NCBI GenBank assembly: GCA_002707495.1
Contig: PAMZ01000003.1
Span: 1-64,000, forward strand
DNA: 64,000 nt
Direction of reading: 5' to 3'
Source of the DNA: Halobacteriovoraceae bacterium
Lineage (GTDB): Bacteria > Bdellovibrionota > Bacteriovoracia > Bacteriovoracales > Bacteriovoracaceae
Below, in pieces: positions 24,079 through 27,348 of this stretch. The number at the start of each line of letters is the position of its first letter. Positions within the stretch are counted from its first letter, which is position 1. The position numbers and the translations under genes are program-made. The notes beneath the pieces are model-generated. The model was not told the DNA's origin and did not search any database. It saw only the letters and a program-made list of their open reading frames with translations.

Positions 24079-24276
24079 ATGAGCAAAGTGAAAAAATCAA
24101 AGAAATTGAAAACCTTTATAAAAGAGGAAAAAGGCCAGGGCGTGATGGAATATATTATCTTGACTGGTTTAGTGGGTATATTTTGCCTAGCCGCTGTGAA
24201 AAAATTTGGAAAATCTCTCGATACGCGTCTTAATCAAATCGATAAAAAAATCAAAAGAGAATTGGTGATCGACTAA
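24079..24276 (+). CDS. flp: Flp/Fap-type type IVb prepilin
   Basis: 65 aa with the Flp leader: a basic N-terminus, then G19 followed by QGVMEY, matching the G|XXXXEY processing motif (Glu at +5, Tyr at +6) and a single hydrophobic helix (IILTGLVGIFCLAAV). It is the major-pilin candidate of the Tad-type locus that follows. AAAAGGGAG precedes the ATG, and the next gene starts inside its stop codon (TAATG). Confidence 0.85.
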   Translation: MSKVKKSKKLKTFIKEEKGQGVMEYIILTGLVGIFCLAAVKKFGKSLDTRLNQIDKKIKRELVID

Positions 24277-24509
24277 TGGAAACTTTAAGGTTCACCATCT
24301 CATCAGGTTTAATACTTTCGGCCCTCTGTCTGTCACTTAGAAAGACAGAGGAGCTTCAATGTCAAAAATATAAAGCTCATACAAAAATTCAAAATGAGCT
24401 TAAAAATCGCTTTAAAATCAAAACTCTTCCGAGTTTATCTTTTTTAAATTTCTGCCCAACTCCAAAAACAAATTCTTACCGACTTAATGGAGGAGTCGAT
24501 TTTGAATAA
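24276..24509 (+). CDS. Small protein of the Tad-type locus, unknown function
   Basis: 77 aa, start overlapping the pilin stop (TAATG). One N-terminal hydrophobic segment (ISSGLILSALCLSL) followed by a basic soluble tail with two cysteines. Not recognised; by position it could be a minor pilin or assembly protein. Confidence 0.6.
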   Translation: METLRFTISSGLILSALCLSLRKTEELQCQKYKAHTKIQNELKNRFKIKTLPSLSFLNFCPTPKTNSYRLNGGVDFE

Positions 24510-25065
24510 TCAAAAAGGCTCAGCTTCATTTCTTGTCATCGTATCACTTCTCATCGTCTGCTTGAGCTTTACAATGATAGTCAAAAAAGATATTTCCCAA
24601 ATAAAAGAGCAAAACGATACCTATTACGGTCTTTTATGTGCCAAAGAGGTCAATAGTGAAACAGGACGTCTCGTAACCGAAATCAATTTTACTAATAAGA
24701 TTTTAAAATTACTTAAAGCCGGAAAACTACTTACTAGTCTCATCCCTCAACTAAGACTTCTAACTGGTTTTTTAGGTAAAGCCAGTCAAAAATCTCTTAA
24801 AGCCTACCAAAATGCCCGTGTTCAAAAATATCGAATCACTCTCTCTTCCTTGAATAGGCAAAGATGTCATGTACTTCCAAAGTCATATAAAACTCCCTTT
24901 CAATTCGGACTTGTGAGCGCAAGAAGGGACAAATGGGATCGAATAAAAATGCGAAATCGCTCAAATTGGGAGCATCGCTACTTTGGAGGAAATCTAAGTA
25001 TTAAGTCAAAAGTTAATATGAGATCGGGAAAGACGCAGACAAAACTCATAAGGAGAATTTTTTAA
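24502..25065 (+). CDS. TadE/TadG-like pseudopilin candidate
   Basis: 187 aa from a TTG at 24502, six bases after GGAGGAG, overlapping the previous stop (TTGAATAA); an ATG at 24487 is possible. The N-terminus NNQKGSASFLVIVSLLIV resembles a processed pseudopilin with Gly before a hydrophobic helix, as in TadE/TadG proteins. The remainder is basic with no clear domain. The link to the Tad family is by topology and position only. Confidence 0.6.
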   Translation: MNNQKGSASFLVIVSLLIVCLSFTMIVKKDISQIKEQNDTYYGLLCAKEVNSETGRLVTEINFTNKILKLLKAGKLLTSLIPQLRLLTGFLGKASQKSLKAYQNARVQKYRITLSSLNRQRCHVLPKSYKTPFQFGLVSARRDKWDRIKMRNRSNWEHRYFGGNLSIKSKVNMRSGKTQTKLIRRIF

Positions 25066-25209
25066 ATGATACTACAACTCTTTGTTTTTTTTCTCGTGAG
25101 CCTTTGGATTCAATTCGCTCTCATTAATAAAAAATTAGAAACAGTGAAAGACAAAAATAAATCAAGCTTTGAAAGGAGATGGAATGAAATCGATCGGCGA
25201 TACCAATAA
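25066..25209 (+). CDS. 47-residue single-pass membrane protein in the Tad-type operon
   Basis: ATG directly after the upstream TAA, preceded by AAGGAG at about 11 bases. It encodes a hydrophobic helix (LFVFFLVSLWIQFALI) and a charged tail, and its 3' end holds the ribosome binding site and start of the next gene (overlap 26 bp). Tight coupling on both sides supports a real gene. Possibly a minor pilin or a small anchor subunit. Confidence 0.55.
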   Translation: MILQLFVFFLVSLWIQFALINKKLETVKDKNKSSFERRWNEIDRRYQ

Positions 25210-25591
25210 GAAAAATCTCCTCACATTAATTCTCCTGTTTATGAGCAATTTCGTAACCTATCAACTAGCCTCCCTGCCACAGGAAATGAACACTCCTCAA
25301 GAGAGTTATATGCGTCCAGACTATGACACGATAAAACTTATCGCCAGAAGTTATATACCTTTTGAAAGACTCAGACCTATTCATGTGAAAGATGACGGTA
25401 GATTAATAGCTTATTGTCTTTTAATTGATAAAAATCCTGAAACTGAAGAGTTTACTCTCTATTGTCCAAAAAAATTTTTGGGAAGACTCGTTAACTCTCA
25501 AAACCCTCATTTGATTCCCTATCAGGAGGACTTGAAAATCACAACAAACAATATCACCAAAGGAAGATCCTATGAAATCTCTATTCCCTAA
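25184..25591 (+). CDS. Tad-locus membrane-anchored protein, CpaB-like by position
   Basis: 135 aa from the ATG at 25184, behind AAAGGAG. One N-terminal membrane helix (LLTLILLFMSNFVTYQL) and a soluble domain with two cysteines (IAYCLL and LYCPKK). In Tad operons a CpaB/RcpC protein usually precedes the secretin. The size and single anchor would fit a shortened version, but no SAF domain motif is evident, so the identity is a guess. Confidence 0.5.
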   Translation: MKSIGDTNKKNLLTLILLFMSNFVTYQLASLPQEMNTPQESYMRPDYDTIKLIARSYIPFERLRPIHVKDDGRLIAYCLLIDKNPETEEFTLYCPKKFLGRLVNSQNPHLIPYQEDLKITTNNITKGRSYEISIP

Positions 25592-25910
25592 TCCATTCTT
25601 AGTGAAATCTCTCATTTTTAGCATTCTTATTTTTAAAGTAAGTGGAGCCCATGCCATGGAGATAATTATTCAAACAGAAATAGGTGCACCAAAAATGGCC
25701 AGCTCCATTAAAGAGAGGTTGATTCAAAAGTATTACCTACCTAGTAATCGAATCAAAATTTATAGAGTTAAAAATTGTGAAAGCAAAGAAAGATTTAGAT
25801 TAGAGTGGTGCTTAAAAAAAACAGGGGATCTCTTAGAGCTCCCCAACAAAAACAATTCACTTATAAAAACTTCACTTTTAGTTTTTAGAAGGATTAAAAA
25901 TGATCAATAG
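25572..25910 (+). CDS. Small exported protein of the Tad-type locus
   Basis: 112 aa, signal peptide SLIFSILIFKVSGAHAM, then a short mixed alpha/beta domain (EIIIQTEIGAPKM) with two cysteines (KNCESK, LEWCLKK). It overlaps the previous gene by 20 bp. No family recognised. It is co-translated with its neighbours, and the secretin frame starts within its last codons. Confidence 0.6.
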   Translation: MKSLFPNPFLVKSLIFSILIFKVSGAHAMEIIIQTEIGAPKMASSIKERLIQKYYLPSNRIKIYRVKNCESKERFRLEWCLKKTGDLLELPNKNNSLIKTSLLVFRRIKNDQ

Positions 25911-27348
25911 AGAATTAAATTATTTCTCTTTGTGGACCGCAAACTTAGGTGTTGTACCATGCTTTTCGTTGTGGTTCTTACGCTTTCTACCAGCTTTTTT
26001 AAGCTTTAAACGTCTTCTACATCTTGTTTGCATTGTTCGTGAAGCCATAATATTTTCCTTATTCAATTCGTCAATTTTATCAAAAAACAGAAGGTTATTA
26101 TTAACGTTTGGTGCTTGTATTGTCAAAGCTTTCTTGCTCTCAGCCAGTTTGTGCGAAGCAAAACCAGTCATTAACGAAGAAATCTTTCTCTCCAAAGGTG
26201 AGCAAACAGAAATCTCTATAAAAAACCTCGAAAATTACTCAATTGGAAATAAAGAGGTGCTTAAGCATAAGTATTTAAAATCTAAGGATCTTCTTATCCT
26301 AAAAGCTGCGAGTCTAGGCTTTTCAGACCTTATTATAAACACCAAAGATAATAAATATGCCTATAAAATATATGTCACATCAAAACGCTCTCAATTAAAG
26401 AAAATGGAAGCGGCAGGAGCTATTGAAAAAAGTGGTCTAGAGGTAAATACATTTTCCGATGTCATCTATGTCTCGGGAGAGATAAAAGACTTAAGAACTT
26501 ATCTGCTCTACCAAAAAATCCTCAAAGATGACTCACTGCAAGTTGTTTCAGAGGTAGGTCTAAAATCAAAATTTGCCTCAGACTTTATAGACAAACTCTA
26601 CAATGATTTTCGTAAAGCTGGCTTTGAATTCATCAGTTGTCAGCTCGTAGGAATAGATTTTTTCTGTCAATACTTGGGAGACTCTGGTCAACAAAGCCTA
26701 ATCAAAAAATACCAGCAGCAATTCTTCGTAAAGATCTCGCCCTTAGAATCAACAATGTCTTTAAAGCTAAAGCTTTATATCGTTTATATTAAGCAAAATG
26801 ACTCTATTCAAAGAGACTCTGGTCTTAATCAAATCTCTGCCTCCTTGAAAGACGCAATTGAATTAAATAAGAGATCACTAAGAACAGGAGATATTCTATT
26901 ACAAGACGAAGGGCTTGAGTCCTATCTTATAGCTAGTCCTGCTCTTTCAATATTAGGAGGAGAAAACTTTGAAGTCAGCATAGGAGAGGAACAACCTATT
27001 ATAAACCAAACTGCGACTTCACAAACAACCACTTTCAAATTCTCAGGAATAAAATTCAAAGGAAAATTAGAAAGCTTAGGAAATCATTATAAACTTAAAT
27101 ATCAAACTGAGATTACAGAGAGTGGACAGTCCAATTTCTCAGGTCCGAGGGGGAAATCTGCTTTTCTTATAGATCTAGACCAAACAAAAGAAATTTTGGA
27201 ATTCGAATTAGATCAAAAAAGTTTTACGAAGCAATCAGTGCCCTGGTTAAGCGCTCTCCCCTATTTAGGTGAGTTACTCCAAAAAAATGAAACGCAGTTT
27301 GGTCAATCCATACTCAAGTTTTTTATTACCGTAGAGGAAGATAAATGA
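25900..27348 (+). CDS. CpaC/RcpA-type secretin of the Tad locus (N-terminus uncertain)
   Basis: Outer-membrane channel subunit. The first domain after the signal peptide (LSKGEQTEISIKNL to YKIYVTSK) matches the secretin N-terminal pilus-formation domain. The C-terminal half has the secretin closing motif (VPWLSALPYLGELLQ followed by LKFFITVE). The ATG at 25900 has AGAAGGA ahead and overlaps the previous stop, but the first 58 residues are Phe/Leu-rich and lie antisense to a small basic gene at 25920-26048. A perfect signal peptide (SKNRRLLLTFGACIVKAFLL, then cleavage after CEA) begins near residue 61 with no ATG or GTG nearby; an ATT at 26074 is the only well-placed codon. Confidence 0.75.
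   Translation: MINRELNYFSLWTANLGVVPCFSLWFLRFLPAFLSFKRLLHLVCIVREAIIFSLFNSSILSKNRRLLLTFGACIVKAFLLSASLCEAKPVINEEIFLSKGEQTEISIKNLENYSIGNKEVLKHKYLKSKDLLILKAASLGFSDLIINTKDNKYAYKIYVTSKRSQLKKMEAAGAIEKSGLEVNTFSDVIYVSGEIKDLRTYLLYQKILKDDSLQVVSEVGLKSKFASDFIDKLYNDFRKAGFEFISCQLVGIDFFCQYLGDSGQQSLIKKYQQQFFVKISPLESTMSLKLKLYIVYIKQNDSIQRDSGLNQISASLKDAIELNKRSLRTGDILLQDEGLESYLIASPALSILGGENFEVSIGEEQPIINQTATSQTTTFKFSGIKFKGKLESLGNHYKLKYQTEITESGQSNFSGPRGKSAFLIDLDQTKEILEFELDQKSFTKQSVPWLSALPYLGELLQKNETQFGQSILKFFITVEEDK
25920..26048 (-). CDS. Hidden 42-residue, very basic protein antisense to the secretin 5' end
   Basis: Starts MASRTMQTRCRRRLK and ends HGTTPKFAVHKEK; about 40% of residues are Lys, Arg or His. It has its own ATG with AAGGA at a proper distance and a near-consensus sigma-70 promoter (26098-26126) on the same strand. 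The overlapping plus-strand frame is unusually Phe/Leu-rich, as expected for the antisense of a lysine-rich gene, which suggests this is the selected strand. The composition recalls small ribosome- or nucleic-acid-associated proteins, but no named family can be claimed. It interrupts the plus-strand pilus operon. Confidence 0.7.
   Translation of the reverse strand: MASRTMQTRCRRRLKLKKAGRKRKNHNEKHGTTPKFAVHKEK
26098..26126 (-). promoter_or_regulatory. Strong sigma-70 promoter for the antisense basic gene
   Basis: TTGACA (26121-26126) and TAATAA (26098-26103) with exactly 17 bp between, on the minus strand. The start would fall near 26091, giving a leader of about 40 nt to the ATG at 26048. It lies inside the secretin signal-peptide coding region. 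Confidence 0.7.

Follow-up and report, generated by a model that had tools for sequence, protein, structure and literature searches.

Can one short stretch of bacterial DNA serve two proteins at once, read from opposite strands, and if so, which of the two was there first? This question is raised by a locus in a window of 64,000 nucleotides (contig PAMZ01000003.1 of a Halobacteriovoraceae bacterium, the window being the whole stretch of DNA that was analysed), in which a reading frame for a small basic protein lies antisense within the 5' end of a secretin-like frame. Gene finders usually allow only one frame at such antisense overlaps. The comparison of related loci described here makes it highly probable that the locus holds two overlapping genes on opposite strands, both translated, and that the small gene is the old one, over which the start of the secretin has moved upstream.

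The functionality of bacterial antisense overlapping genes is disputed, according to PMC7457138; the overlapping genes analysed there are typically young in comparison with their host genes, and many embedded open reading frames (ORFs) are conserved beyond the genus. Among described cases, ano, laoB, pop and asa of Escherichia coli O157:H7 resemble the present one in that a short gene is embedded antisense in a longer one (PMC5960689, PMC5810103, PMC7103648, PMC6294744). For those genes the case is reportedly made by expression data, whereas here it is made by a comparison of 89 loci, and the short gene appears to be the older partner. A literature search, with subscription papers mostly outside its reach, returned no recognised description of the gene pair or of the small protein.

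Every part of the minus-strand unit that a sequence-only reading of the window had proposed, from a TTGACA-N17-TAATAA promoter and an AAGGA ribosome site through an ATG and 42 codons to a TAA, lies where that reading had placed it (Table 1). The product, there described as about 40% basic, comes close to this figure with Lys and Arg alone (16 of 42 residues, 38%) and reaches 19 of 42 with His included. The list of ORFs begins the gene at an upstream TTG (91 aa), whereas homologues place the start at the ATG: the first 27 all begin with an ATG at the equivalent position and all terminate at the stop. A promoter scanner picks the overlapping AATAAT at 26102-26097 as the -10 box (spacer 18, score 11/12), and since the 1 kb scanned contains four promoter-like sites, against 3.2 in shuffles, the motif taken by itself says little. 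The same simple scanner called no terminator at the hairpin at 25844-25816. A second promoter-like match, TTGACG-16-TATTAT, stands at 26074-26047 on the minus strand, between the main promoter and the small gene.

Table 1. Features of the overlapping gene pair in the window
Feature	Position	Strand	Remarks
Small gene, 42 codons and stop (basic helical protein, C-terminus GTTPKFAVHKEK)	25920..26048	-	Relatives in 250 of 290 genomes of the phylum; dN/dS 0.088 (25 pairs)
Start and stop of the small gene	ATG at 26048; TAA ending at 25920	-	Read from the sequence
-35 box of the small gene, TTGACA	26121..26126	-	Perfect in 85 of 89 family loci
-10 box of the small gene, TAATAA, spacing 17	26098..26103	-	Family consensus TAAA[AT][AT] at spacing 17 in 85 anchored loci
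Ribosome site of the small gene, AAGGA	26056..26060	-	86 of 89 loci pair at -5 kcal/mol or stronger
Terminator-like hairpin (25844-25824, -10.2 kcal/mol) and T-rich tail (25823-25816)	25816..25844	-	Inside the gene preceding the secretin
Secretin-like frame, 482 aa, running over the small gene	25900..27348	+	PF00263, 27.2 bits; no stop opposite the small gene in 81 of 89 loci
Ribosome site of the secretin, AAGGA before ATG	25889..25893	+	Scored -5.5 kcal/mol
Putative dual-coding stretch, secretin residues 7-50	25918..26049	+	7 of 18 invariant columns; stop-free beyond expectation

The long frame on the plus strand belongs to a cluster that resembles a Tad or type IVb pilus locus, with a Flp-like pilin, a secretin-like protein and, as the gene after the secretin, a clear type II/IV secretion ATPase (T2SSE). 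Unlike in a typical Tad pilus locus, the secretin and the pilin of the window score below their Pfam cut-offs: the secretin falls just short (PF00263, 27.2 bits against a curated cut-off of 27.5, E 3.3e-6) and is filed as secretin-like, and the pilin reaches 18.5 bits for Flp_Fap against a cut-off of 32.2. The secretin frame overlaps the end of the preceding ORF (25572-25910). Four small ORFs lie between pilin and secretin (24276-25910); the ORFs at 24276, 24487 and 25572 and the frame at 25169 gave no Pfam match. Some genomes of the family carry a separate, fuller Tad operon.

The small gene is found across the phylum Bdellovibrionota, which the genome searches covered. The single window sequence matched 27 of 39 genomes, its own included, each with a single copy that aligned from residue 1 as far as residues 36-42. 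A profile search hit 250 of the 290 genomes of the phylum (198 of 221 among those of good quality) and left 40 without a match; one genome held two matches and the other listed genomes one. A broader profile centred on another family found matches in 111 of 118 genomes. Among 15 genomes without an earlier match that were searched again, four gave short matches only, at E above 0.2, and 11 gave none. This occurrence is far beyond chance. A plasmid collection yielded 0 matches to the small protein. In one of the 89 family loci (L132, 4001, plus strand), an ATT preceded by an AGGAG ribosome site stands where the ATG of the small gene would be expected.

Conservation of the 42-residue product with synonymous-biased change had been named as a check on the gene, and this is what the data show: over 25 non-overlapping pairs, dN/dS is 0.088, with 40, 42 and 232 differences at codon positions 1, 2 and 3. 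The same bases translated as secretin give a dN/dS of 0.168. Residue conservation alone cannot tell which of the frames is selected, because third codon positions face each other and this phase transfers conservation from one frame to the other; the case for the small gene therefore also rests on its relatives outside the overlap. An AlphaFold2 model built with 40 sequences shows a single helix at residues 6-29, followed by a tail of lower certainty (mean pLDDT 82). The window protein matched nothing in Pfam, NCBIfam or the PDB at E up to 1, and profile and member-wise searches with loose limits gave scattered weak matches only (best E 0.014 in Pfam and 0.38 in the PDB, none in NCBIfam), so that no solved ribosomal chain and no curated family in these three collections is convincingly related to it.

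The comparison itself draws on 125 items, namely the window, 22 loci from the single-sequence search, 22 from the profile search and 80 from a contig scan that kept 80 of 132 relatives, which together make up 92 distinct loci. From the profile search, 22 of the 27 loci fetched entered the set; L060 duplicates L010, and L065, L075, L078 and L079 lie at contig ends. In 89 of the 92 loci a secretin occupies the frame opposite the small gene, and these constitute the family set (Bacteriovoracaceae). Left out were L111 and L114, at contig ends, and L022, in which, as in L048, the secretin frame stops 92 codons past the small gene though similarity goes on, so that either the gene is broken or the sequence contains an error. 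The 89 loci are related to one another; the 36 representatives, whose small proteins are less than 80% identical, are still relatives and only partly independent. The secretin alignment comprises 35 of 61 candidate loci and the window.

Across the family, the expression signals of the small gene recur. Specifically, 85 of 89 loci carry TTGACA on the strand of the small gene and no more than 160 bases ahead of it (TTGAC in all 89), compared with 4.3 expected from base shuffles and 1 on the other strand, and this comparison supports a promoter of the sigma-70 type. For the ribosome site, pairing is at least as strong as -5 kcal/mol in 86 of 89 loci; among random positions, one in ten reaches -5.2. 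Downstream, 63 of 89 loci have a hairpin at -8 kcal/mol or below, followed by a T-rich tail, in the first 250 bases, compared with 11 of 89 shuffled sequences; for a distance of up to 300 bases, the counts are 21 of 36 among the representatives and 2 of 108 among shuffles. With its relatives, promoter and ribosome site, the unit inside the secretin frame is thus borne out as a genuine antisense gene. The high expression that was also attributed to it is suggested by the promoter and the ribosome site, the two features that bear on it.

If the hairpin marks the end of the transcript, the predicted antisense RNA would cover the start and ribosome site of the secretin in 45 of the 63 loci that have a hairpin. 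In excludon-type arrangements, an antisense transcript reaches over the start of a neighbouring gene. The present locus is alike in that the transcript of one gene is predicted to cover the start of its opposite-strand neighbour, and unlike in that the coding sequences themselves overlap. The excludon arrangement is named in PMC3627812, which reports for Bdellovibrio 140 attack-phase promoters, of which 92 show a FliA-like consensus, and no reliable map of transcription starts in the growth phase; in the proteome of PMC12546842, small proteins are underrepresented.

Evidence that the opposite frame is also under selection comes from its stops. For the openness test, 2000 versions of the small gene were drawn for each locus, its codons being exchanged for synonymous ones according to local usage, and stops arising in the secretin frame were scored. 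The secretin frame is open in 81 of 89 loci, compared with 33.2 expected (31 of 36 representatives, compared with 11.1), an openness never reached in 200,000 simulated draws, and the other two frames are unenriched (0 of 36 against 0.5 expected; 9 of 36 against 16.4 expected). The effect can be traced to individual codons. When the Ile or Val codon that precedes the conserved His has T as its third base, a TGA arises in the secretin frame. This is so in 8 of 88 loci (the motif is absent from one locus), where 45.9 would be expected, and it is in these 8 loci that the secretin frame is closed inside the small gene. In turn, a last codon of the small gene that ends in a pyrimidine forms, with the following TAA or TAG, a stop in the secretin frame, and such a codon occurs in 3 of 89 family loci versus 10 of 13 loci of other families; a Fisher value for this contrast was set aside, as it takes in the 81 loci whose openness is given by definition. 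Codon choice at these conflict positions indicates stop avoidance in the secretin frame, and as the positions are few and named, the dual constraint is directly testable. Because the secretin frame is open far more often than the residues of the small protein and local codon usage predict, both strands are probably translated. The pair combines two open frames with signs of selection on the small protein and of selection that keeps the secretin frame open.

The overlap is also reflected in the secretin N-terminus. Of 18 invariant columns among 36 secretins, residues 7-50 hold seven, residues 51-89 one and the remaining 393 residues nine, the other being Met1. The secretin motif NLGVVP is the antisense of GTTPKF in the small protein, and Val75-Lys76 (GTC AAA) is the antisense of TTTGAC in the -35 region. 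Conservation of the secretin N-terminus had been put forward as a possibility that would take the place of the small gene; this conservation is indeed seen, but the positions that never vary there reflect the small gene together with its promoter. This carries a warning, as conserved secretin residues such as NLGVVP and VK may mirror the opposite strand and not secretin function. The Phe/Leu-rich tract noticed on the plus strand is present and is largely the antisense reading of Lys/Arg codons, third base on third base. The extension sits ahead of what reads as an ordinary signal peptide. In a structure model of the secretin, residues 1-20 are unreliable, residues 19-59 and 65-83 form helices of low to middling confidence, and the well-predicted part begins at about residue 90.

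The order of events can be approached through 13 loci, drawn from eight families of the phylum other than this one, that have the small gene upstream of a long frame running opposite to it. In 12 of the 13 this frame is a secretin (family profile, E 9e-19 or better; the exception is L162), and in 11 of these 12 a stop separates secretin and small gene, followed by an ATG with a signal-peptide-like stretch. In the remaining one (L172), the frame is open across the small gene, for which chance alone gives an expectation of 76%, yet the first ATG comes after the small gene. At another ten loci from outside the family, no ORF of at least 90 codons overlaps the small gene (10 of 10). In a tree of the neighbouring ATPase, 22 family loci, the closed ones included, fall on one side of a branch with 100/100 support, in an unrooted tree whose bootstrap was not settled; the other-family loci f17 and f24 group with ATPases of a separate Tad operon. 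By these data, the in-phase overlap is confined to one clade. As the small gene elsewhere stands alone or behind a stop, it looks old, and the N-terminal extension of the secretin was probably overprinted onto it, probably once.

In the seven family genomes without the small gene that were looked at, this secretin profile found partial matches only, none longer than 190 of its 497 positions, and a convincing small protein was not found; five of these seven are less than 90% complete. Secretins from three genomes without the small gene (G006, G253, G134) were considered as cases of a lost extension and rejected, as the surroundings show these loci to be a second Tad operon that is distinct from this one. 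In L250, L251 and L252, which come from three family genomes that lack the small gene, a second, fuller Tad operon is present; the secretin there begins with an ordinary signal peptide or is short at its start.

Other explanations divide the evidence differently. Perhaps the small gene alone is real and the secretin starts downstream at an unusual codon, with the open plus frame as a by-product. That the extension is the low-confidence part of the structure model, that 8 of 89 loci are closed and that the secretins of other families begin past the small gene would all suit this account. In the closed loci, either the full extension is dispensable or an internal TTG is used; a TTG inside the small gene is the best-scoring secretin start in 7 of the 8, which counts for little, because the pairing there derives from the antisense of the conserved Gly-Thr-Thr. 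The account is at odds with an openness far above what small-protein residues and codon usage lead one to expect. It also conflicts with the starts: in the window, no in-frame ATG, GTG or TTG occurs from the small-gene start to secretin codon 72, and a start preceded by a ribosome site is present to the left of that gene; across the family, the best-scoring start is left of it in 70 of 89 loci, inside it in 18 and right of it in 1, by a score that takes the best of several candidates without a matching control. A secretin that begins downstream is improbable.

The converse, a real secretin N-terminus with the antisense frame as an accident of phase, could appeal to the conservation of this N-terminus in the family and to the way in which the conservation of one frame can show in the other. 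It is refuted by relatives of the small protein outside the overlap, which have promoter and ribosome site also where no secretin opposes them or where the secretin lies in another frame or behind a stop, and its probability is close to nil. A third account, in which the minus-strand product is an antisense RNA that regulates the secretin and the peptide is incidental, would agree with an RNA that is predicted to cover the secretin start in most hairpin loci; a constraint at the protein level (dN/dS 0.088), the presence of the small gene across the phylum without a secretin opposite and an Rfam search at the locus without a match led to the rejection of a pure antisense RNA, which is very improbable, while a regulatory side effect of the minus-strand RNA on the secretin is possible. 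The sequence-only reading had favoured a small gene inserted into, or arisen within, the pilus operon, for which its position inside the operon on the opposite strand speaks. Here the order has to be reversed: relatives occur phylum-wide, alone or separated by a stop, and the overlap is limited to one clade, so that a recent insertion was rejected and insertion or origin within the operon is highly improbable.

The comparison supports a model in which an old small gene was overprinted by the secretin. Ancestrally, a gene for a basic protein of about 42 residues, phylum-wide and usually single-copy, would have had its own promoter, ribosome site and, mostly, a terminator-like hairpin. In the Bacteriovoracaceae, the secretin start would then have shifted upstream, and its frame would have come to read the small gene and its promoter in antisense; with third codon position opposite third codon position, both proteins could persist. 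The small transcript, predicted to run from about 26090 to about 25816, would cover the secretin ribosome site, so that mutual interference is likely whenever transcription of both genes takes place. The Phe/Leu-rich extension may act with the following signal peptide as a membrane-targeting leader, or it may simply be tolerated. The locus would thus offer a family-wide case with codon-level evidence for both frames and a likely order of events.

What the small protein does is a more tentative matter. Small basic ribosomal or nucleoid proteins are as a class small, charged and widely conserved, with promoters of their own. The present protein is like them in size, charge, wide conservation and promoter, and unlike them in that it has no convincing match to a solved chain, Pfam or NCBIfam. 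A housekeeping role as a constitutively made ribosome- or nucleic-acid-binding protein is favoured, because the gene is widespread, nearly single-copy and short, its product basic and helical, and its promoter and ribosome site conserved; such a role would have somewhat less than an even chance of being right. Either way, this protein family has been retained in most of a phylum to which predatory bacteria belong, and it has no curated model. A further-reaching proposal holds that a secretin export leader was born from the antisense reading of an old, well-expressed ribosome- or nucleic-acid-binding gene, with Lys/Arg codons turned into Phe/Leu, and was fixed family-wide, the fates of the two genes being tied and their transcripts controlling each other. 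This is rather unlikely as a whole; if true, the gene of a basic protein would yield a hydrophobic membrane leader on its other strand.

Some members of the family depart from the 42-residue form. In L020 (1501 onward, plus strand), the small protein has a long Ala/Lys-rich, histone-H1-like tail and 99 residues, and tails of this kind would fit nucleic-acid binding. Longer coding stretches for the small protein also occur in L099, L103, L125, L135 and L159, from Bacteriovorax-type genomes, and the opposite secretin frame is open there too. In more distant families (L175-L191), the helix is the same and the C-terminus differs, ending mostly in an LFGD-like motif and not in KFAIH, perhaps for another partner.
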